Source of the DNA: Luteolibacter yonseiensis | GTDB taxonomy: Bacteria > Verrucomicrobiota > Verrucomicrobiia > Verrucomicrobiales > Akkermansiaceae | Length of the DNA: 64,000 bases | Reading direction: 5' to 3' | NCBI RefSeq assembly: GCF_016595465.1 | Contig: NZ_JAENIK010000012.1 | Span: 744,001-808,000, forward strand | In this document: in pieces, positions 3,064-12,797 of the stretch | Layout: every line of letters begins with the position of its first letter | How positions within the stretch are numbered: the stretch's first letter is position 1 | Notes under the pieces: model-generated | What the model was told of the DNA's origin: nothing | Databases searched by the model: none | Seen by the model: the letters and a program-made list of their open reading frames with translations, nothing else | Translations under genes and position numbers: made by a program

Positions 3064-4746
3064 ATGACAAGCCGGACGGATGCCCTGACTCCCACGCCCC
3101 GCAGCCGCTGGGCGCTGGGATTGCTGATGTTCCTGCTCGGCGGCTGCGGACTGGCCTACGAATACACCCTGAGCAAGATCGCATCGGATCTGTTGGGAAA
3201 TTCCGTGCAACAGTGGGCGACGATGATCGCCACGATGCTCTTCGCGATGGGCATGGGGGCGGATTTCCAAAAACACACGCCGGCGGACCGGTTGGCGGAC
3301 CGCCTCATCAGCTCGCAGATCGCCCTGGCGGTGCTGGGAGGATTCGGCCCGCTGATCATGATCCACGGCTTCGCGCTGCTGCCGCAGCTTTACATCATCA
3401 TCCAGTACGCGCTGGCCTTCACCGTCGGCTTGCTCATCGGTTACGAAATCCCTCTGGTCATGCGGATCAACGAGGAGTCCGAACCGGACATGCGGTTCAA
3501 TCTCGCCCAGGTCCTGAAAATGGACTACGTCGGCGCGCTGGTGGGAGCCCTGCTGTGGACCTTCCTGCTGGTGCGTTACCTGAGCATCGAGCGCATCAGC
3601 TTCATCGTCGCACTGGCGACCATCGCCTCCTCGGTGCTGTGTTATTTCCTCTATCGAAGACGGCTATCCGGGCCACGCGCCCGGGTATGCGAAATCGCCG
3701 GTGCCACGGTGCTGGTCACGCTGGGCTTTGTTTTCGGACGCGGTCTCACGCTCCGGGCGGAACAATTCCTCTACCGCGATCCCATCGTCACCTCGCTGAC
3801 AACCCCGTTCCAACACGTCGTCCTCACCCAGAACCGCAGCGGAAACCTGCGCTGCTACATCAACGGCCACCTCCAGTTCAACGAGGCGGACGAGCAGATC
3901 TACCATGAAAACCTCGTCCATCCCGCCATGCACATCGCCCCGAGGCGGGAAAAAATCCTCATCCTCGGCGGCGGGGATGGCCTCGCCTTGCGTGAGGTCC
4001 TGAAATACCCGGAGGTCCGCGAGGTCACCCTGGTGGATCTGGACCCGATGATGACCGATCTGGCCACGAACGATCCGCACCTCGTGCGGATGAACGGCGG
4101 CAGCTTGTCCGATCCACGGGTCACGCGGAGGGCGGCGACCGGGATCAATCCGGGAGTGGAGTACCGGGCGGCGCAAACCAGCCAATACGAGCTGTTTCCC
4201 ACCGAGACCCATGAGATCGCGACACTCCACGTCATCAATCTGGACGCCGCCGAGTTCGTGAAGACCATGGATTCCGGGCATGACGTCGTGTTCATGGATT
4301 TTCCCGATCCAAACTCGCCGGACCTTGCCAAGCTTTATGGCCGCCCGTTCTACGACCATCTGAGGAACCGGCTCAATCCCGGAGCCGTGATCGTCCAGCA
4401 ATCCGGCGGCTGCTTCCAAGCCCGCGAGGCGTTCCTCTGCATCGGCCGCACCCTCCAGGCCGCCGGATTCAACGCGGTGCCCTACCACGACAATGTCCCC
4501 TCATTCGGAGAATGGGGCTGGTGGATCGCCACCATGGGAAGATCCGCGGAGCAAACCCGGAACGCACTCGGCGGTCTCGGGAAATTGCAGGTGCCCACCC
4601 GCTACCTCACGCCCGAACTGGTATCGGCATCCCTTGCGTTTGGAAAAAACGACCTCTTTTCCAATCATCAGGATTTTACTTCTCTGACAGAACCACGCGT
4701 CTATCACTATCACCTCCAAGGTTGGAACATCGAAGAAACCCCATGA
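3064..4746 (+). CDS. Membrane-embedded spermidine-synthase-like protein
   Basis: The 560-residue protein has two parts. Residues about 15-225 hold six or seven hydrophobic segments. Residues about 235-555 are an aminopropyltransferase-like Rossmann domain with GGGDG at 302-306, VDLDP at 324-328, and the substrate-side motif FNEADEQIYHENLVHPAM (272-289). The FMDFPDP motif corresponds to the catalytic Asp region. Soluble SpeE moves an aminopropyl group from decarboxylated SAM to putrescine; membrane-fused forms are known but their product is not settled. It is the first gene of a nine-gene operon that also encodes SpeD, which would supply decarboxylated SAM. The next gene starts inside its stop codon (ATGA). 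The acceptor may be a polyamine or something at the membrane. Confidence 0.88.
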   Translation: MTSRTDALTPTPRSRWALGLLMFLLGGCGLAYEYTLSKIASDLLGNSVQQWATMIATMLFAMGMGADFQKHTPADRLADRLISSQIALAVLGGFGPLIMIHGFALLPQLYIIIQYALAFTVGLLIGYEIPLVMRINEESEPDMRFNLAQVLKMDYVGALVGALLWTFLLVRYLSIERISFIVALATIASSVLCYFLYRRRLSGPRARVCEIAGATVLVTLGFVFGRGLTLRAEQFLYRDPIVTSLTTPFQHVVLTQNRSGNLRCYINGHLQFNEADEQIYHENLVHPAMHIAPRREKILILGGGDGLALREVLKYPEVREVTLVDLDPMMTDLATNDPHLVRMNGGSLSDPRVTRRAATGINPGVEYRAAQTSQYELFPTETHEIATLHVINLDAAEFVKTMDSGHDVVFMDFPDPNSPDLAKLYGRPFYDHLRNRLNPGAVIVQQSGGCFQAREAFLCIGRTLQAAGFNAVPYHDNVPSFGEWGWWIATMGRSAEQTRNALGGLGKLQVPTRYLTPELVSASLAFGKNDLFSNHQDFTSLTEPRVYHYHLQGWNIEETP

Positions 4747-5726
4747 ACTCCCTGACAAAAATCGGCGTCGGCATTTTCGCCATCATCATCGCGTTTTCGA
4801 TGATGTCACAGTGCGGCAGGAAAAATCCGGCCCAGGAGGCCCGTGTCACCCAATCCAATCCGGCCGCGGTTGAGAAAACAACCGAAGTGGTCCTCAAGGA
4901 ATACTCAAAAGGCCTCAATCTCGATGCCGTCACGCTTCTCGCGAAGAAAGCGAAGGACGCCGCCGACTTCGAACTCCTGCTCAACACCCAGTCGGAAGGC
5001 GTCAACAACCTCGACCTCAATGACGACAAGAAGGTCGATTACATCAAGGTCAGCGAATATGGCAGCGGAGACCAGCGTGGATTCTCCCTCACCACCGAAC
5101 TCGAACCCGGCAAGGTCCAGGAGATCGCCACCATCGAGATCAAGCGCGAGGCCGACAAGGCCACCGTGCAAACCACCGGAAATCCTTCCCTCTACGGCCC
5201 CGCTCAATACCATCACTCCAGCTTCGGACTCACCGACATGCTGCTCATGGGCTGGTTGTTTTCCTCCAACCGGCCTTCATACAGCTCGCCTTATGGCTAT
5301 GGAAACTACCCGCCGTCCTATGGCGGCGGTTGGAACCGCCAGGCACCGGACAGTTACGAGGGCACCATGAAATCGCGCACGGCCGGATCCACCATCCGAA
5401 CATCGAAGCAGTCAGTCATCCAGCAGCCCGCCGTTTCGCCGAACGCGGAAAAGATCGCGGCGAAGTCACGCGCCCTCGCGAATCCGACCCAATCGCAGCG
5501 CTCGTTCGGAAGCCCTTCGGGCAGCACGTCCGGCAGCCAGCGCACCAGCGGCACTGCCTCCAACAGCAGACCCGGCACTTCATCAAACACTTCTACCGCT
5601 CCGAGCAGACCCACCTCCTCCTTCAAGCCTGCCGCTCCCAGCCGTCCCAGTTCTTCCGGTGGCTTCGGGCGTTCCAGCAGTTCCGGCTCCTCCCGCAGCG
5701 GCGGATTCTCCCGTGGTGGCAAATAA
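4743..5726 (+). CDS. Exported protein with Ser/Gly/Arg-rich tail
   Basis: The start ATG at 4743 overlaps the upstream stop. The N-terminus MNSLTKIGVGIFAIIIAFSM ends in SQC-GRKN, so it may be a lipoprotein, although the lipobox is imperfect. Residues about 35-140 form a globular domain with an NLDLNDDKKVDYIKV strand (an EF-hand-like or dockerin-like Asp pattern) and an EIATIEIKR segment. After a Tyr/Pro/Gly stretch (about 170-205) the last 120 residues are low complexity, Ser/Gly/Thr/Arg rich, ending SRSGGFSRGGK. This architecture recalls DUF1190 proteins (E. coli YjfM/YgiB) that sit beside PspA or glutathionylspermidine-synthase genes, but sequence homology cannot be claimed. Confidence 0.82.
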   Translation: MNSLTKIGVGIFAIIIAFSMMSQCGRKNPAQEARVTQSNPAAVEKTTEVVLKEYSKGLNLDAVTLLAKKAKDAADFELLLNTQSEGVNNLDLNDDKKVDYIKVSEYGSGDQRGFSLTTELEPGKVQEIATIEIKREADKATVQTTGNPSLYGPAQYHHSSFGLTDMLLMGWLFSSNRPSYSSPYGYGNYPPSYGGGWNRQAPDSYEGTMKSRTAGSTIRTSKQSVIQQPAVSPNAEKIAAKSRALANPTQSQRSFGSPSGSTSGSQRTSGTASNSRPGTSSNTSTAPSRPTSSFKPAAPSRPSSSGGFGRSSSSGSSRSGGFSRGGK

Positions 5727-5744
5727 ACCCAAATCCCATATCCC

Positions 5745-6632
5745 GTGAACGAACATTTCCAAGTCTGGTTCGACACCTCCTCCGTTGTCGGAATCTTCAC
5801 ATCTCCCGCCATCCTTTACTTCGCCGTGGGATTGCTGCTCGTCCTGCTGGCCAAGCCGGTCAAGGGCCTGACCACCCGTTATCACCTCAGTGACGAACTG
5901 ACAAAACACGACAACAAGGCTGTCGGAGTCGCAACCGCTGGTTATATCTTCGGCGTGCTCACCCTCATCCGTGGCGTGCTGATTTCGGGAGGAAATCCTG
6001 CCAGCTCACTCGGGCGGGATTTGTTATCTGTCGCGCTCTGGACCGTTATCTCCCTTTCCCTGCTGCTCGCATCGGCATGGATCAACCGGAAGTTCTTGCT
6101 TAACCAGTTCGAGGTTCACAAGGAGCTCATCACGGACCGCAACGTCGGCACCGGTGCGGTTCTGGCAGGCACCTACATCGGCACCGCCTTCATGATCTCG
6201 GCCTCCATCAGCGGCACCACCGGCGGCGGACTTGGCATGGAAATCCTCGATACCCTCGTTTACTTCGTCATCGGCCAGCTCGGGTTCATCCTGCTCGGAG
6301 CCATCTACCAACGCACCTGCGGTTATGACATCCACGGGGAGATCGAACGCGACAACGAAGGCGCTGGACTCGCATTCGGAGCCACGCTCATCGCGCTCGC
6401 CATCCTCATTTCCGGGCAGATCCGCCGTGACGACTCGCTCGTCGCGCTCGCGGTGTGGATTCCCATCTCCCTTTTCGTCCTGCTCGGCAGCCGCTGGCTG
6501 GTGGATCTCGTGGTCCTGCCGGACGCACGCATCCATGATGAAATCGCACGCGACAGGAACTGGGGTGTGGCTCTCATCGAGGGAGCCGCCGCCATCGGAG
6601 TCGCACTGTTGCTGGACGCATCGTTTTCCTGA
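5745..6632 (+). CDS. Duplicated DUF350 membrane protein
   Basis: GTG start at 5745, 18 bp after the previous gene; 295 residues with about eight hydrophobic segments. A motif of the type acidic-x-x-D-(N/R)-N-x-G recurs four times, each at the start of a membrane helix: KHDNKAVGVA, TDRNVGTGAV, RDNEGAGLAF and RDRNWGVALI. E. coli YjfL (DUF350, about 130 residues) carries half as much sequence, so this is a tandem duplication. DUF350 proteins are inner-membrane proteins of unknown function, often near PspA and YjfI homologues, as here. Confidence 0.88.
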   Translation: MNEHFQVWFDTSSVVGIFTSPAILYFAVGLLLVLLAKPVKGLTTRYHLSDELTKHDNKAVGVATAGYIFGVLTLIRGVLISGGNPASSLGRDLLSVALWTVISLSLLLASAWINRKFLLNQFEVHKELITDRNVGTGAVLAGTYIGTAFMISASISGTTGGGLGMEILDTLVYFVIGQLGFILLGAIYQRTCGYDIHGEIERDNEGAGLAFGATLIALAILISGQIRRDDSLVALAVWIPISLFVLLGSRWLVDLVVLPDARIHDEIARDRNWGVALIEGAAAIGVALLLDASFS

Positions 6633-6643
6633 ACACCAAGACC

Positions 6644-7480
6644 ATGTCCGACGATTACGTAGACGAACCCTGGACCGCTTCCGACGAGCAGAGACTCCGC
6701 TTCGCCGGTTTGTTCCTGTTGGAATACATGATCAACCATCCCCAGATCTTCCAGGTCTGGCTGGAGCGGGATGACGCGGACCTGGAGCCCATCCTCGAAT
6801 GGCTGCTGGTGAAGGAGTGGATCCTCATCCGCGAGGGCAAGGACTACGTGCCATCCGAGGAGGGAAGGAATGTCATCAAGCGTTTCATGGAACGCTACGC
6901 CCGCTTCGTCTATTTTTTCGATGTCTTCTCCGGAGTCGATCTGGGTGCCGGGGAATTCGCGTTCGCCAAATATTTTGAAATCCTCGATGAACAGGAATGG
7001 CTGGACCACCTGCACGACGAACGTTTCCAGGATGTCCGCATCGCCATCGCCGAACACCTCGGCATCGATGCGGTGGAAATCGTCTTCATGAGCTTCATCC
7101 GCGAGGACCGCTTCGGCCGCGACGCCGCGGGCTGGCAGTTCGACCTGCTGCTGGGCAGCGTGTGGGACGAGATCCTCGGCGTCTGCAATGAAGCCATCGA
7201 CCTCCACGAACTCGGCTACCAGGACGGAGACCGCTGGATCGAAGGCCCGGTCGTGGCCGAGGACATCCTCCAGCAAGGCGGTGCGCTGCTGGGAAAACTG
7301 CTGGCCCGCGCCGAAGGCGAGCTCCAGGGCAAAGGCCCCTCCCCCTCCGGTGGAAACGAAGCGGACCGCGTCGTCGCGCCCGTCACCTTCCCACCCGCAT
7401 CTGACTTTGATTTCGCCAACTACATCGAACCCGCAAACCGTGACCGCTTCTGGGAAGACAATTGGGACTCCGACAGATGA
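6644..7480 (+). CDS. Unknown acidic protein of the Psp operon
   Basis: The 278-residue protein starts MSDDYVDEPWTASDEQRLRF. It is strongly acidic and mainly helical, with no membrane segment or signal peptide. An N-terminal part (about 15-90) with FLLEYMINHPQIFQVWLERD and LLVKEWILIREGKDYVPSEE looks like a winged-helix-type fold. The middle (about 95-225) has VEIVFMSFIREDRFGRDAAG. The last 50 residues are a Pro/Ser linker and tail. I do not recognise a family. It lies 11 bp after the DUF350 gene, and the ion-channel gene starts inside its stop codon, so it is translated with them. Confidence 0.82.
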   Translation: MSDDYVDEPWTASDEQRLRFAGLFLLEYMINHPQIFQVWLERDDADLEPILEWLLVKEWILIREGKDYVPSEEGRNVIKRFMERYARFVYFFDVFSGVDLGAGEFAFAKYFEILDEQEWLDHLHDERFQDVRIAIAEHLGIDAVEIVFMSFIREDRFGRDAAGWQFDLLLGSVWDEILGVCNEAIDLHELGYQDGDRWIEGPVVAEDILQQGGALLGKLLARAEGELQGKGPSPSGGNEADRVVAPVTFPPASDFDFANYIEPANRDRFWEDNWDSDR

Positions 7481-8586
7481 TCCTGCTGCTCATCCGCCGC
7501 TGGTCCTGCCAACGCCACAAGCCGGTCGTGCGCGTGGGCACGGCGTTGCTCATCGCGCTGGCCCTCAATCTCATCTTCGGCGCGGCCTTCCTGACCGCCG
7601 AATCCGGCAGGCAGCCGGAGCTGGGGTTCTGGGACTCGGTGTGGTGGTCCATGGTCACCATGACCACGGTCGGCTATGGCGACTTCTTCCCGAAAACCTT
7701 CTTCGGCCGGTTCTTCGTCGCCTACCCCTGCATGCTGCTGGGGATCGGCCTCATCGGCTACTCGCTCGGCGTCATCGTCGAAACCCTGATGGAAAGATTC
7801 AACAAACGCCGGAAGGGCACCGCGACCATGCACTTTGAAAACCATCTCGTCATCTGCCAGTGCCCGTCCGTTTCGCGGGTCATCCAGCTCGTCGAGCAGT
7901 TCCGCACCGCCCATGCCGACCCACAGCGTCCGGCGGTCTGTGTCACCAACCAGCTCGACGAACTGCCCTTGGAATTCCGCGAGAAATCCATCCACTTCGT
8001 CAAGGGACTGCCGACATCCGAAGAAACCCTGCTTCGGGCCGGAGTCGCCAACGCCACAGGGGTCATCATCCTCGCCCGCGACATCAGCGACGAAGGCAGC
8101 GATGCAGAAAGCTTCACGGCGGGCACCCTGGTAAGACTCATCGAAGAAAGCGGGACACGCTCCATCTCCGTCGTGATCGAACTCGCCCGCCGGCAGAACC
8201 TGCGCATGATGGAGCGCGCTGGTGCCGACGGCATCGTGCCGGCGGAGGGCATCACCGACATGCTGCTTACCCAGGAGATGTTCAACCCGGGCCTCCGTCA
8301 CGTCGTCGAAAACCTGGCGACCCACGACACTGGTTGCGAATTCTACATCGTCCCCCACCGCTTCGGCGGGCGCGCCCTGCGGGAAATCCAGAGGGCTGCC
8401 CTGGACCATCCGTCGAATCTGCAGATCGTCGGGGTGCTTCGGGATGGAGCCGCCCTGATGACTCCCGACAAATCCTTCCGCCTCGGAGCCACCGACAAAC
8501 TCATCCTCCTCGCGGAAAAGCGCGCCGACTACGACGCGTTCGAAACCACCCATCTCAACAACCACCCACAACCTCCAACCGAATGA
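7477..8586 (+). CDS. Ion channel with TrkA-like regulatory domain
   Basis: The ATG at 7477 overlaps the upstream TGA (ATGA); an in-frame TTG at 7462 is less likely. The 369-residue protein has a hydrophobic helix (about 20-40), a pore loop with the potassium-type selectivity filter TVGYGD (64-69), a second helix (about 78-98), then a cytosolic RCK/TrkA-N-like region starting HFENHLVICQ and a C-terminal TrkA-C-like part ending LGATDKLILLAEKRADYDAF. This is the two-helix Kch/MthK-type layout. In this operon it may adjust membrane potential during envelope stress (inference). The next gene also overlaps its stop by ATGA. Confidence 0.9.
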   Translation: MILLLIRRWSCQRHKPVVRVGTALLIALALNLIFGAAFLTAESGRQPELGFWDSVWWSMVTMTTVGYGDFFPKTFFGRFFVAYPCMLLGIGLIGYSLGVIVETLMERFNKRRKGTATMHFENHLVICQCPSVSRVIQLVEQFRTAHADPQRPAVCVTNQLDELPLEFREKSIHFVKGLPTSEETLLRAGVANATGVIILARDISDEGSDAESFTAGTLVRLIEESGTRSISVVIELARRQNLRMMERAGADGIVPAEGITDMLLTQEMFNPGLRHVVENLATHDTGCEFYIVPHRFGGRALREIQRAALDHPSNLQIVGVLRDGAALMTPDKSFRLGATDKLILLAEKRADYDAFETTHLNNHPQPPTE

Positions 8587-8996
8587 AACCAATCCAGATC
8601 AAGCTCCAGCGCGACGAAGAACTCCCGCGCTTCCTCGAAGCGAACGGCTTCACCGTCGAAGCGCTTTCAAACGATGTCTACCGCGTCGACCGCGAGAACG
8701 AACTCCCCGTCTTCCTCAAGGTGGACGAGAAGCAGATCTACTTCGAGGTGGACCTCGGAAACATCGACGCCATCATCACCCAGGAACTCTTGCTGTCCCT
8801 TCTCGCTCTTAACACCGAGATCCTTCCTGTCAGCGCGGGACTGGACACCAGCAACCCCGCCGACCGCCGCCTCGTCCTCGTGGAAAGCCGCGAGACCGGC
8901 GACCTGAACGACCAGGAACTCCTCGCCGTGTTCGACGCGCTCGAACTCGCCGTGGACCGCGTCACCGAACTCCTCAGCCCATCCATCAACTCCTAA
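8583..8996 (+). CDS. YjfI family protein (DUF2170)
   Basis: The start ATG at 8583 overlaps the channel stop. The 137-residue soluble acidic protein has ANGFTVEALSNDVYRVDREN and a LLSLLALNTEILPVSAGLD segment typical of the YjfI/DUF2170 family, which is encoded next to the PspA paralogue YjfJ in E. coli. Its function is unknown; genomic context ties it to PspA. Here it lies directly before pspA (12-bp gap). Confidence 0.87.
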   Translation: MKPIQIKLQRDEELPRFLEANGFTVEALSNDVYRVDRENELPVFLKVDEKQIYFEVDLGNIDAIITQELLLSLLALNTEILPVSAGLDTSNPADRRLVLVESRETGDLNDQELLAVFDALELAVDRVTELLSPSINS

Positions 8997-9008
8997 CATC
9001 CCTTCATC

Positions 9009-9704
9009 ATGAGCATTTTCTCACGCATCTTCAAGATCGGCCAGGCCTCCGCGAACAAGGTGGTCGAAAAATTTGAAAAACCCGAGCTCATGCTCGAACA
9101 GGCGATCGCCGACAAGGAAAAGCAGATCCGCGAGGTGAAGCAATCCGTCCAGCAGGTCATCGCCACCGAGCGTCAGAGCAAGGCCCAGCTTGAAAAGGAA
9201 AAGGCCGAGAAATTCCAGTGGGAACAGAAGGCGGAAGCCGCCATGCGCGCGGGCCGCGAGGATCTCGCGGTGAAGGCCCTCGAACGGGCCAGCGAGCACG
9301 AGTCCCGCGCGGCTTCCCTGGAACCCGTCTGGCAGGGGCAGCAATCCTCCGTCGCCGAACTGAAGCAGGAGGTCATCAAGATGGAGGCCGAGGTCGCCGA
9401 ATACCGCCGGAACAAGGACTTCATCATCGCCCAGAGCAAGGCCGCGCAGGTCAAGAAGGACATCTACGAGGCCAAGGCCCGCATGACGACCAACCGCAGC
9501 CCGGACGACCTGATGGCACGCATGAAGGCCAAGGCCGAGCGCCAGGGCTACGAAGCCGACGCCGCCAAGGAAATGGCCGACAATTCCGGTTCCACCCGCC
9601 TCGAGGATGAATTCAAGTCCCTCGGTTCCAGCGCGGCGAATCCCGACGTCCAGTCCAAATTGGACGCTCTCAAGGCCAAGCTCGGCACTACCACGCCAGG
9701 CTGA
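9009..9704 (+). CDS. pspA: PspA/IM30 family membrane-stress protein
   Basis: The 231-residue protein starts MSIFSRIFKIGQASANKVVE, the amphipathic N-terminal helix of PspA/IM30, followed by EKPELMLEQAIADKEKQIRE and long charged coiled coils to about residue 170. PspA/Vipp1 proteins are ESCRT-III relatives that coat and stabilise the inner membrane. Sequence and length match the YjfJ type. It is the seventh gene of the operon, between YjfI and a small anchored protein. No PspF or PspBC homologue is nearby, so regulation differs from the classic psp operon. Confidence 0.95.
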   Translation: MSIFSRIFKIGQASANKVVEKFEKPELMLEQAIADKEKQIREVKQSVQQVIATERQSKAQLEKEKAEKFQWEQKAEAAMRAGREDLAVKALERASEHESRAASLEPVWQGQQSSVAELKQEVIKMEAEVAEYRRNKDFIIAQSKAAQVKKDIYEAKARMTTNRSPDDLMARMKAKAERQGYEADAAKEMADNSGSTRLEDEFKSLGSSAANPDVQSKLDALKAKLGTTTPG

Positions 9705-9724
9705 TGTTCGCTTGAAAAGTGATC

Positions 9725-10117
9725 ATGGGCAAAACAACCAAAATAGCGATTTTCACCGCCTTGACGTTGTCGGTTATTCCGATAATACGGTTTCAGGCTC
9801 GCTATGATGTTGAGGTGAACTGGTCATTTCGGGAAGCCACGCCGACCAATCACACCATTTCGCTTCAAGGCAGAACCTTCACAGTTCCTGCTGGCCAATC
9901 CGTTCGGCAGATTCACCAGTTAAAGGGTGGAGGCTGGGCGGCATTGACCTACTTTGTCGTCGGATGGAGATTTCCGGATCAACAACTTGTTGTTGATGGC
10001 AGAGAGACGCCTCTCAACCGCATGCACATATCCAACAAAAAGGGAACCCTGCGCATCCTTGGAATGGGACTTTCACCCGCGATGAATTCACAGATCACGC
10101 TGGAAAATCAAAATTAA
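9725..10117 (+). CDS. Small membrane-anchored protein
   Basis: About 130 residues from the ATG at 9725 (an in-frame GTG at 9719 is the alternative). It has a single N-terminal hydrophobic segment ([17 protein letters not shown]) and a beta-rich exported part with [20 protein letters not shown] and a [10 protein letters not shown] segment. No family is recognised. Its GC content is visibly lower than its neighbours, which may mean a later arrival in the operon. It lies between pspA and speD with gaps of 20 and 14 bp. Confidence 0.75.
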
Positions 10118-10131
10118 GCCGCATTGCCATC

Positions 10132-10566
10132 ATGATCAAATATCATCCCGAATCCTGCCCTCCGCCAGTCTTGGATACAAGGTTGGCGGAGCCCGGCCCC
10201 ACCCCACCCGCAGGGCGGCACGTCCTGGCAGAACTCACAGGCTGCCCGCCGGAGGTGCTCAACGACGTCCGTGCCTTGGAAACCTGCTTCCGCGACTGCG
10301 CGGAAAAGGGCGGGGCCACGCTCGTTTCCTCACACTTCCACCACTTCACCCCGCAAGGGGTGAGTGGCGTGGTGGTGATCGCGGAAAGCCATCTCACCGT
10401 CCACACTTGGCCGGAACACGGCTACGCGGCGGTGGATGTCTTCACCTGCGGCCGCCCGGAAATCGCGGAAGCCGTCATGTCCCTGCTCATCGCCTCCCTC
10501 TCCGCCGGAACCGTCAACCGCACCTCCTTCCACCGGGGCCCTCACGCCGTCCCGACCGCGGTTTGA
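10132..10566 (+). CDS. speD: S-adenosylmethionine decarboxylase proenzyme
   Basis: The 144-residue protein is a bacterial class 1b AdoMetDC. The self-cleavage pair is Glu85-Ser86 in [12 protein letters not shown], so Ser86 would become the pyruvoyl group; His91 and Cys106 (in VFTCG) match the processing and catalytic residues. Length (usually 120-140) fits. It makes decarboxylated SAM, the aminopropyl donor for spermidine synthases, and closes the operon whose first gene encodes the membrane SpeE-like protein. This supports a real aminopropyl-transfer role for the cluster. Confidence 0.95.
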
Positions 10567-10755: not shown

Positions 10756-12051
10756 ATGTCAGAAATTCTAGCAGATCGCGCCAGCCGCGGAGTTCCCCCG
10801 GTCCGAAAATCCCTCATCGCGGAACACGGCTGCGAGGCGCTCGAACTCGATTACGAACTCAAGCTGGTTCTTTTCCTCACCGCCCGTATCGATGGTGAGA
10901 CGAACCATGCCGAGAAACAATACACCGCCGCCGTAGGCAGGAAGTTGGACTGGTCCGCCGCACAGGACCGGATGCTGGAAGCCCGTGTGCTCGCACAGCC
11001 CGGCTACGATCTCTCCGCACTTCGCTTCGGCAGCCAACACCCGGCATGGGGAGAACAGTTGTTCCGCATCGCCGCCGGGACCGTCCTCGCGGACGGTGTG
11101 GTGAATCACGACGAACGTCTGTTCTTGGGCAACCTCGCCTTCCAGCTCCTCGGCGGCGACATGTCGCGCATGGAGCGGATCCTCGCATGGCTGGAATCCG
11201 GCGGGGAGGAACCCGCCGAGCCGGCCCCGGTCGAGGTGCCGAAGGAAGACCTCGAAACCTGCCTCGCCGAGCTGAACGCCCTTGCCGGACTCGCGAACGT
11301 CAAACAGGAGATCGAAAGCCTCGTCCGCTTTCTGGAAATCAACAAGGCCCGTGCCGCCCACGATCTGAAGGGGGCGGCGATGTCCCTGCACATGGTCTTT
11401 TCCGGAAACCCCGGCACAGGAAAAACCACCGTCGCACGCATCGTCTCGCGTATCTTCGCCGCGCTCGAGGTGCTGAAGAAGGGGCACCTCGTCGAAACCG
11501 ACCGCCTCGGACTCGTCGGTCAATACGTGGGCCACACCGCGAAAAAAACCGACGACATCGTCCGCCAGGCGCTCGATGGAGTGTTGTTCGTGGATGAAGC
11601 CTACGCCCTCGTCTCCGGTGGCGAGAACGACTTCGGACGCGAAGCCATCGACACCCTCGTCAAGCGCATGGAAGACCACCGCGAACGGCTCATCGTCATC
11701 GCCGCCGGCTATCCGGACGACATGAAGCAGTTCATCGACACCAACCCCGGCCTTCAGTCCCGCTTCACCATCCACCTGAATTTCGAAGACTACACGGCCC
11801 CGGAGCTGGTCAACATCTTCAAGGGATTCTGCGAGAAAAACCAATACACCCTCGAAGCTTCCGCCGAAGCCGCGCTCGAAACCCGTATTGAGGAAGAACT
11901 CAAAACCGCGGGACGAGGATTCGGCAACGGCCGCCACATGCGCAACCTCTTCGAAAAGGCCATCCGCCGCCACGCCGTCCGCCTCACCCTCCGCAAGCGC
12001 GAGTGGACGAAGGAGGAACTCGCACAACTCACCTCCGAGGATCTCGGATGA
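10756..12051 (+). CDS. CbbX/SpoVK-like AAA+ ATPase with TerB-like N-domain
   Basis: 431 residues. Residues about 30-145 are helical and resemble TerB-like domains, with paired acidic segments (FLTARIDGE and ADGVVNHDERLF). Residues about 165-430 are a CbxX/CfqX-type AAA+ module with Walker A GNPGTGKT (217-224), Walker B LFVDEA (277-282), and a sensor/arginine region GLQSRF. Such ATPases remodel protein complexes, as in Rubisco activase CbbX. TerB domains occur in membrane-linked stress systems. The gene follows the Psp operon in the same direction after 190 bp containing an inverted repeat, so a functional link is plausible but unproven. The stop is followed at once by a REP element. Confidence 0.9.
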   Translation: MSEILADRASRGVPPVRKSLIAEHGCEALELDYELKLVLFLTARIDGETNHAEKQYTAAVGRKLDWSAAQDRMLEARVLAQPGYDLSALRFGSQHPAWGEQLFRIAAGTVLADGVVNHDERLFLGNLAFQLLGGDMSRMERILAWLESGGEEPAEPAPVEVPKEDLETCLAELNALAGLANVKQEIESLVRFLEINKARAAHDLKGAAMSLHMVFSGNPGTGKTTVARIVSRIFAALEVLKKGHLVETDRLGLVGQYVGHTAKKTDDIVRQALDGVLFVDEAYALVSGGENDFGREAIDTLVKRMEDHRERLIVIAAGYPDDMKQFIDTNPGLQSRFTIHLNFEDYTAPELVNIFKGFCEKNQYTLEASAEAALETRIEEELKTAGRGFGNGRHMRNLFEKAIRRHAVRLTLRKREWTKEELAQLTSEDLG

Positions 12052-12188: not shown

Positions 12189-12797
12189 AAGACACGTTCG
12201 CAGCCCGCTCGCCTTCCCATAGGGAAAACTCCCCCTCCGTCAATTTAGCCTTAAAGGGATTGTTCCGGATATATCGGACCACATTGATGAAATGATCCGT
12301 ATCGCGAATCATCGTATCCCTGTAATTCCGCTGCCAAATCGGCCCGCGGCGGATATATCTGGCGGAAACACTTTCCACGCCTCAATCAAATCCGGCAGCG
12401 GGACCAAGGGCATGAAAAGCAAGTGCACATGATTCGGCATGATCACCCACGCCTCGTGCCGCACGCGTTCGCCTTGGAAACGCATCAGCGACTCCGCCAG
12501 AGCATTCCTCGCGGCAAGGTCCTTCAGCAAACAGGAACCGCTCCCCTCGTCCAGCCACTTCTCGATCCGCCACGTGAACCGTTTCTCATACTCCCGCGCG
12601 ACCTCCGCCGTCCATGGTTTGGGATGGGCGAGAATCCAGTCAGATCGTTGCTCTTTCCACATCCTCACCTTTTTCAAGGGCAGCGCGTCGCCCAATCTGA
12701 AAGTAACAAACTGCATGGCCTCGTTCTGCTGCCAGTGCGGAAGCTTGTCCCCGTGCTTTTGGATAAGACGTTCCGTTTTCAGATAATCGGAAGGCAT
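12178..12797 (-). pseudogene. REP-associated tyrosine transposase (RAYT), frameshifted
   Basis: The N-terminal frame (12797 to about 12375) gives MPSDYLKTERLIQKHGDKLP and then the HUH motif MPNHVHLLF of Y1 transposases. After LPDLIEAWK the family continues in another frame: SVSARYIRRGPIWQRNYRDT with the catalytic Tyr, then VVRYIRNNPFKAKL, ending at 12178. Restoring one A in the run at about 12375 rejoins both parts to about 205 residues, the usual RAYT length. So a 1-nt deletion splits the gene; a sequencing error or frameshifting cannot be excluded. The C-terminus runs into the REP at 12162-12188. RAYTs move or spread REP elements, and this gene is bracketed by two REP modules. Confidence 0.9.

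Follow-up and report, generated by a model that had tools for sequence, protein, structure and literature searches.

The 64,000-nucleotide stretch of the Luteolibacter yonseiensis genome analysed here (assembly GCF_016595465.1, contig NZ_JAENIK010000012.1, positions 744,001 to 808,000; in the following the window) carries an operon in which a gene for a membrane-fused aminopropyltransferase, termed mSpeE (gene A), directly precedes a gene for an exported protein (gene B) that ends with a lysine. We give an even chance to the reading that the core of this operon is a membrane-bound aminopropyltransferase with a protein acceptor, namely the C-terminal lysine of its partner, as the sequences suggest. 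Nine collinear genes, which overlap by 4-19 bp or are separated by 11-18 bp, were identified on the forward strand, within the limit of 20 bp set by a first-pass annotation of the same DNA. That annotation placed the unit at 3064-10566; the nine genes were found as described, while the upper bound has to be moved, because the AAA+ gene J at 10756-12051 belongs to the unit and lies beside the operon in 9 of the 39 related loci introduced below. The overlap of 19 bp between genes D and E holds if the TTG start of E is correct. The genes are as follows.

3064..4746, + strand: A, mSpeE, 560 amino acids, seven predicted transmembrane (TM) helices followed by an aminopropyltransferase domain (Pfam Spermine_synth 113.4 bits; NCBIfam NF002956 548.4 bits)
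4743..5726, + strand: B, exported membrane-anchored protein, 327 amino acids, folded domain followed by a basic Ser/Gly/Arg tail with the end SRGGK (ATG start at 4743, overlap of 4 bp with A)
5745..6632, + strand: C, membrane protein with two DUF350 stretches (PF03994, 181 bits; gap of 18 bp after B)
6644..7480, + strand: D, protein with a winged-helix-like N-terminal part and a conserved helical part without assignment (gap of 11 bp after C)
7462..8586, + strand: E, 2TM K+ channel with an RCK domain and a TVGYGD filter (Ion_trans_2 59.9 bits, Slo-like RCK 34.3 bits)
8583..8996, + strand: F, CesT/Tir-type chaperone-like protein (PF05932 26.7 bits, cut-off 22; overlap of 4 bp with E)
9009..9704, + strand: G, PspA/IM30 family protein (PspA_IM30 130.6 bits; gap of 12 bp after F)
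9719..10117, + strand: H, small protein with an N-terminal hydrophobic segment, a lineage-specific insertion between G and I (gap of 14 bp after G)
10132..10566, + strand: I, SpeD, S-adenosylmethionine decarboxylase (AdoMet_dc 132.9 bits in Pfam, TIGR03330 132.4 bits; gap of 14 bp after H)
10756..12051, + strand: J, AAA+ ATPase of the SpoVK/CbbX/EccA group, tenth gene of the unit (starts 189 bp downstream of I)

When genome contigs were scanned once with A, a near set of 39 loci was obtained, in which chains of genes were assigned by profiles of the window proteins. The loci carry the labels Verrucomicrobia, Lentisphaeria, Calditrichota, Deltaproteobacteria, Chitinivibrionales, Gemmatimonadetes and Bacteroidetes, among others; Verrucomicrobia is also the label of those closest to A, at 67-82% identity. 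Lysine is the last residue of B in 31 of 32 complete homologues, including the window protein; the exception (locus L021) ends with GGGKN, and two further B frames run off the end of a contig and are not counted among the 32. Proteins of the eight other multi-member operon families at the same loci end with lysine in 8 of 170 cases (A 1/39, C 0/30, D 2/24, E 0/18, F 0/18, G 2/18, I 0/14, J 3/9). Two elements of B matter for the following.

5721..5723, + strand: codon of the C-terminal lysine of B, the proposed aminopropyl acceptor
5013..5057, + strand: calcium-loop-like motif of B, residues 91-105 (DLNDDKKVDYIKVSE), with L92, D99 and E105 invariant and D91, V98, I101 and V103 present in at least 90% of 29 sequences

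B consists of a signal-anchor-like N-terminus, a folded domain with the calcium-loop-like motif and a basic tail, which varies in length and sequence. In its structure model the predicted local distance difference test (pLDDT) score is above 80 for residues 51-240 (in blocks of ten) and below 55 in the tail. The fold had no Foldseek match at E values up to 0.001 and a VIA Z score of at most 4.5, and a dockerin model matched 3 of the 29 B sequences weakly. The motif is strongly conserved in the exported domain, and divalent cations may regulate B. A lipobox was considered as proof of an exported C-terminus and rejected: the pattern occurs in 4 of 34 B-family frames and in 1 of 52 short peptides and is thus not general among the partners.

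A distant set of 72 mSpeE genes was assembled from three sources. The phylum of genome G324 (Vicinamibacteria; the phylum is presumably Acidobacteriota) was covered with 297 genomes, of which 52 contributed 53 genes that pass the NF002956 cut-off. Within the window's phylum 12 of 387 genomes exceeded this cut-off, and a further 10 genes came from these, G000 and G046 being left out since they carry B; 9 were taken from 13 plasmid matches (H3, H8 and H11 not included, partial match H13 left out). Partners were selected by a rule blind to the last residue, which takes the nearest open reading frame (ORF) of at least 35 amino acids on the same strand that has a hydrophobic segment and ends just 5′ of the DUF350 gene, or 5′ of mSpeE where no DUF350 gene lies just upstream. 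More than 300 nt of upstream DNA were available for 67 of the 72 genes, and 61 of these had a qualifying ORF. The nearest one ends with lysine in 56 of the 61 cases, and at least one ORF at that place does so in 59 of 61; both counts include L072 (ending ADSK), a doubtful ORF. They supersede a smaller position-based count (nearest 41/45). When the rule was applied at random places of the same DNA on both strands, a lysine end was obtained in 57 of 875 cases (32 of 561 distinct ORFs), and all frames of at least 60 codons gave 120 of 2202.

The partners found at distant mSpeE genes differ from B and are usually short membrane peptides with lengths of 47-98 residues and GGK as the commonest tail. 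After removal of the last four residues, 97 lysine-ending partners fell into 8 groups without detectable similarity to each other (E below 1e-3), the largest comprising 56 members and the B group 31. Several unrelated partner types have the lysine ending in common. Five short peptides and three longer partners showed no Pfam or NCBIfam family above cut-off. Both types of operon are bridged by locus L066, where a DUF350 gene, a lysine-ending peptide in the place of B, mSpeE, a K+ channel, a CesT-like protein, PspA, SpeD and an AAA+ protein occur together. The rule failed for 8 of the 67 genes, of which 6 have a lysine-ending protein elsewhere in the DNA covered. At L071 and L164 it is encoded directly 5′ of another DUF350 gene, and at L159, L161, L162 and L079 it is a Gly/Ser-rich protein; at L079, and likewise at L072, the lysine-ending protein is encoded on the opposite strand, together with DUF350 and SpeD genes. 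Upstream DNA was too short at L154, L158, L165, L166 and the minus-strand copy in L163, and L158 still shows an ORF ending with RRFGK.

A passes the NCBIfam model NF002956 (PRK03612) for membrane aminopropyltransferases (548.4 bits, cut-off 472) and stays under the cut-off of the canonical speE model TIGR00417 (113.6 vs 249.55 bits). Its SpeE domain is similar in sequence to solved aminopropyltransferase structures and contains the following elements, dcSAM standing for decarboxylated S-adenosylmethionine.

3967..3981, + strand: GGGDG dcSAM-binding motif of A, residues 302-306 (D305 in 72/72 distant homologues; at least 90% in 35 aligned near sequences, window included)
4297..4311, + strand: DFPDP of A with D412 and D415 (72/72 distant homologues)
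4123..4236, + strand: insert of about 37 amino acids at about residues 354-391 of A, within its SpeE domain (all 35 aligned near sequences)

The motifs GGGDG, D-x-D, D394, DFPDP and PSFGEWGW are conserved in the 35 aligned sequences, and Y280, H281, E282, D305, D327, D394, D412, D415 and Q446 are identical in all 72 distant mSpeE proteins. We take the Asp pair of DFPDP to be catalytic or acceptor-site residues, and the roles of the nine invariant residues are likewise assumed to be those in spermidine synthases. As far as the sequence tells, the SpeE-like domain keeps its dcSAM-binding and catalytic residues; a lack of dcSAM binding, named in the first-pass annotation as a refutation, was not seen at this level. 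The insert is specific to the clade of the window: 71 of the 72 distant proteins have three residues at this site and one has 26, so that the distant set is nearly free of it. Seven TM helices are predicted for A and for 72/72 distant proteins; in the near set the number departs from seven in L009 (five), L044 (six) and the fragment L048 (one). In 35/35 near and 67/72 distant proteins the loops of the N-terminal side carry more positive charge, and the mean Lys+Arg density is 0.18 on this side versus 0.11. The positive-inside rule would place the SpeE domain outside, on the same side as expected for the domain of B; this prediction is a lead only, because the charge bias stems partly from longer loops on the N-terminal side. 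C264 (conserved in 34/35) and C459 (31/35) were considered as a candidate disulphide pair.

In the first-pass annotation, a gene order not conserved in relatives was to count against its reading. The order is conserved there and beyond: A-B-C-D-E-F-G are complete in 14 of the 39 loci, which belong to several phyla (L010, L011, L012, L016, L018, L019, L020, L023, L026, L027, L032, L034, L040, L042), and many of the remaining loci stop at a contig edge. With the complete order in this number of loci, the association of A to G is not chance. SpeD is in line with the operon in 13/39 loci. A stands alone in 7/39 (L025, L038, L043-L047), with B on the opposite strand in L038 and C, E and G on the opposite strand in L046. 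In L013 and L014 E is absent between D and F, while PspA and the CesT-like gene are kept. E, F and G are all absent at the loci L024, L031 and L033, which keep the exported protein and DUF350, and SpeD in two of the three; the genomes concerned carry PspA-family genes elsewhere. No genes of the chain follow D in L036 (2.5 kb covered) or E in L039 (6.4 kb covered). Since E or E, F and G are absent from some loci, K+ flux and PspA are separable from the unit. Judged by gene content, the core seems to consist of membrane SpeE, anchored partner, DUF350 protein and SpeD, with K+ flux and PspA as accessories.

SpeD was found in 28 and PspA in 36 of the 39 genomes. Among the 28 genomes with SpeD, 16 have the two genes at most 1 kb apart; in G302 the pair is located about 685 kb from A (contig C1, about 1,003,105-1,004,405). 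H had no match in the 39 loci and a relative in 1 other of 189 genomes of the window's order. With an E-value limit of 1e-60, a phylum sample of 288 genomes gave 8 with a match to A, window genome included, and none of the three other sampled genomes of the window's genus was among them; its distribution is therefore patchy. When further neighbouring ORFs were clustered, the clusters listed included genes common to close relatives and translations of other frames. Annotation of two distant mSpeE operons, both with DUF4178 and DUF350 genes, shows additional members, a FAD-dependent oxidoreductase (FAD, flavin adenine dinucleotide) and an SPFH-domain protein in L077 and a toxic-anion-resistance protein in L071.

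The other proteins of the operon could be classified to different degrees; B, D and H had no Pfam family above cut-off, and B no NCBIfam family either. For D no Foldseek match in the PDB was obtained at E values up to 0.001 (model pLDDT 79.9), and its best VIA Z score of 6.0, a middling and commonly reached value, was found with VanR (residues 14-83) and a PadR-like regulator (residues 10-96). The model thus suggests a winged-helix-like N-terminal part (about residues 10-96), the C-terminal part being barely covered by the comparison, and D is possibly the regulator of the operon. Its assignment to a named family was rejected: 4/23 members match HTH_45 and fewer any other model, all weakly (best E 0.0057). 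For F, the sole matches at E values up to 1 were CesT and CesT_Tir_1, and because DUF2170, the YjfI family, was not among these matches, the earlier name YjfI can be retained at the superfamily level only. G, the sole PspA gene found in the 5.73-Mb window genome, reached 81.6 bits with the classical PspA model TIGR02977 (cut-off 242.95) and is a member of the PspA/IM30 family, not a classical equivalog. The identification of I as SpeD was confirmed by TIGR03330 (132.4 bits, cut-off 75.65) and by Ser, His and Cys processing residues at the spacing of the Thermotoga maritima enzyme (S63, H68 and C83; PMC10407285); a converted ornithine/arginine decarboxylase was judged unlikely from the conserved motif. 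J is closest to SpoVK, EccA and CbbX, its SpoVK score of 327.6 bits lying under the NCBIfam cut-off of 422.95. Five promoter-like sites (2.0 expected) and 10 terminator-like sites (10.2 expected) were counted and not used. Recent transfer was not apparent from base composition, since the GC content of the operon (0.56-0.61) is the same as in the rest of the window. An ORF just downstream of J (12309-12797, - strand) resembles, by eye and without a search, a REP-associated tyrosine transposase.

The following account of the reaction, of its position relative to the membrane and of its connection to PspA and stress is inferred from these data. SpeD (I) would make dcSAM, and the SpeE domain of A would move its aminopropyl group onto the side-chain amine of the lysine at the C-terminus of a membrane-anchored partner, whose gene lies as a rule directly upstream of the DUF350 gene and would be B in the window and an unrelated short peptide elsewhere. 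The acceptor was left open in the first-pass annotation; the data point to this lysine. Because lysine carries an aminobutyl side chain, the product, Nε-(3-aminopropyl)lysine, would form a spermidine-like tip on an envelope protein. Operons of the window type would add the PspA stress module (G, F), the K+ channel E, the winged-helix-like protein D and the AAA+ protein J.

Several observations weigh against this reading. The reaction is deduced from sequence. An external SpeE domain implies that dcSAM is needed outside the cytoplasm, and we know of no route for dcSAM across the membrane; should the positive-inside prediction fail, access to the tail would be required before export, or the partner would have its C-terminus inside. 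A charge test of the orientation of the short peptides gave 17 versus 16. L025 and L043 show no B in the DNA covered, the Bacteroidota-labelled loci L044, L045 and L047 neither DUF350 nor a lysine-ending partner in the DNA covered, and L149 and the plus-strand copy in L163 no lysine-ending partner there despite enough upstream DNA. No SpeD was found in 11/39 genomes, all 11 being metagenome-assembled genomes. Furthermore, the rescued partners of L159, L161, L162, L079 and L072 weigh less because the search was for lysine ends, and two of the partner groups (L072/L079 and L159) hold rescued members only. As the sequences are related, the independent evidence is far below the raw counts.

A could instead simply serve the cell as its spermidine (or aminopropylagmatine) synthase, with a membrane tether, so that polyamine made locally steadies the membrane and gates the K+ channel. 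We consider this unlikely, in spite of the NCBIfam family name, polyamine aminopropyltransferase, and of a polyamine gene set that would suit it. Two decarboxylases dependent on pyridoxal phosphate were found in the window genome, LysA and the arginine decarboxylase SpeA, and no NspC-like decarboxylase; as agmatine deiminase is also present, the cell can probably make putrescine, and I is the sole SpeD found. Matches to Spermine_synth are the two halves of A and one SpeE/methyltransferase-like protein of 246 amino acids (L055:1444-2184, - strand), which is far below the speE and PRK04457 cut-offs and just over that of a subfamily of spermidine synthases fused to the major facilitator superfamily (MFS; 40.9 vs 40). 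No other protein comes near the speE cut-off, and A appears by homology to be the only clear aminopropyltransferase of this genome. It is also generally known that polyamines block K+ channels. A synthase of free spermidine would, however, leave the conserved C-terminal lysine of unrelated partners unexplained. Moreover, 3/39 genomes (G303, G305, G320) have an ordinary full-length SpeE beside mSpeE, a further partial match in G322 being unclassed, and the channel is absent from some loci. Work by Li and colleagues from 2019 is said to have described MFS-spermidine synthase and membrane-spermidine synthase fusions together with S-adenosylmethionine decarboxylase and DUF350 genes, with no acceptor named. 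Such fusions reportedly did not replace SpeE in Escherichia coli, and the hosts studied reportedly contain no spermidine, which would also weigh against this explanation.

The lysine might also be a ligand that docks to or plugs the acceptor site of mSpeE and thereby reports the state of the envelope, so that the pair acts as a sensor. A residue kept at the exact end of unrelated proteins does resemble a docking peptide, and the calcium-loop-like motif of B suits sensing; nevertheless we regard this as distinctly improbable, given that a pure sensor would need neither the active-site residues, which are kept, nor the SpeD of 28/39 genomes. We have very little confidence in a role of the lysine in a process unrelated to mSpeE chemistry such as cross-linking, protein stability or sorting. 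The link between the lysine and mSpeE is genomic rather than biochemical, and since the E. coli analogues end with Gly-Gly, C-terminal conservation may have general reasons, but the lysine end accompanies mSpeE in samples from several phyla and with partners of no detectable similarity. The least credible account, which we hold to be improbable in the extreme, is that of the first-pass annotation, a single dedicated unit by which membrane stress is coupled with both aminopropyl transfer and K+ flux. The shared order of A to G and the vicinity of PspA and SpeD genes are what would favour it; the loci without E, or without E, F and G, speak against it.

The reading of the lysine as an aminopropyl acceptor was also compared with known systems. 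Of the operons in Ravi et al. 2024 (PMC11237479), one type has a PspA-CesT/Tir dyad with a 7TM-spermidine-synthase, DUF350 and a lipoprotein of the Ctha_1186 type (e.g. AAN56744-56747) and another a K+ channel; the string "Verrucomicrobi" does not occur in the text of that paper. Its group 2 resembles the window operon in having PspA next to a CesT/Tir gene (F and G are adjacent), a 7TM-SpeE fusion, DUF350 and an exported uncharacterised protein. The DUF350 protein of group 2 has 8TM, and C contains two DUF350 stretches. The window differs by the addition of the K+ channel, SpeD, AAA+ protein J and H, and by having D where group 2 has DUF4178, which matched none of the ten operon proteins at E values up to 1 (Pfam). 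The passages of the paper used here make no mention of a C-terminal lysine for group 2. A K+ channel is present, as in the window, in their third group, the type of E. coli yjf/ygi. The window operon combines features of two published types and adds D, SpeD and the AAA+ protein.

The comparison with E. coli yjf drawn in the first-pass annotation was right: RefSeq annotates yjfIJKLMC as DUF2170, PspA family, DUF2491, DUF350, DUF1190 and "peptide--spermidine ligase", and ygiC, with the same ligase name, adjoins ygiB (DUF1190). The yjf cluster shares with the window a PspA family protein, DUF350, a Ser/Gly-tailed protein (DUF1190) and a polyamine-using enzyme. E. coli YjfM ends with GHWGG and YgiB with SMGG; thus an ATP-grasp ligase without SpeE or SpeD goes with a partner ending Gly-Gly there, whereas SpeE goes with a partner ending Gly-Gly-Lys in the window, where ATP-grasp had no match among proteins A-J at E values up to 1 (Pfam). 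A glutathionylspermidine-type ligase joins a C-terminal Gly to spermidine, and by analogy the Gly-Gly ends of YjfM and YgiB might fit the need of a ligase acting on the C-terminal carboxylate. Judged by partner ends and enzymes, both kinds of operon could provide a Ser/Gly-rich exported protein with a polyamine tip, by ligation to Gly or by aminopropyl transfer to Lys. The fusions ascribed to Li and colleagues reportedly combine, as here, a membrane domain and a spermidine-synthase-like domain with S-adenosylmethionine decarboxylase and DUF350; the C-terminal lysine acceptor is proposed here only. A shares with canonical SpeE the dcSAM-binding and catalytic motifs and the similarity to solved structures, and is set apart by its 7TM domain, the clade-specific insert, the strongly conserved P-S-F-G-x-W-G loop and the partner protein. 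Protein lysines with aminopropyl units are known as the polyamine-lysines of silaffins; these are internal lysines of diatom proteins made by other enzymes, whereas a C-terminal lysine of a bacterial protein is proposed here. It is a tentative generalisation, for which we have less than even confidence, that in bacteria of several phyla a dedicated membrane aminopropyltransferase modifies the C-terminal lysine of small or exported anchored proteins and so provides the envelope with polyamine tips, while the E. coli type arrives at a similar product by ligating spermidine to a C-terminal Gly, with SpeE on the outer face of the inner membrane and dcSAM passed across perhaps by the 7TM domain or DUF350.

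The kind of operon is already published (Ravi et al. 2024) and the window carries a variant of it; the C-terminal lysine rule is undescribed as far as the literature was searched. In the open-access literature nothing was found on an aminopropyltransferase together with a C-terminal lysine, nor on an aminopropylated protein or lysine, and none of the papers listed by a broader search dealt with the subject, judged by title and opening of the abstract. The C-terminal lysine, conserved beside most of the enzymes covered, narrows the candidate acceptor to a single residue, which can be tested by a single mass shift. If the proposal is true, it would describe a protein modification without a match in the literature searched and would bring together polyamine chemistry, envelope proteins and the PspA stress response in one mechanism, and the peptide-spermidine ligases of E. 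coli would represent a parallel solution.

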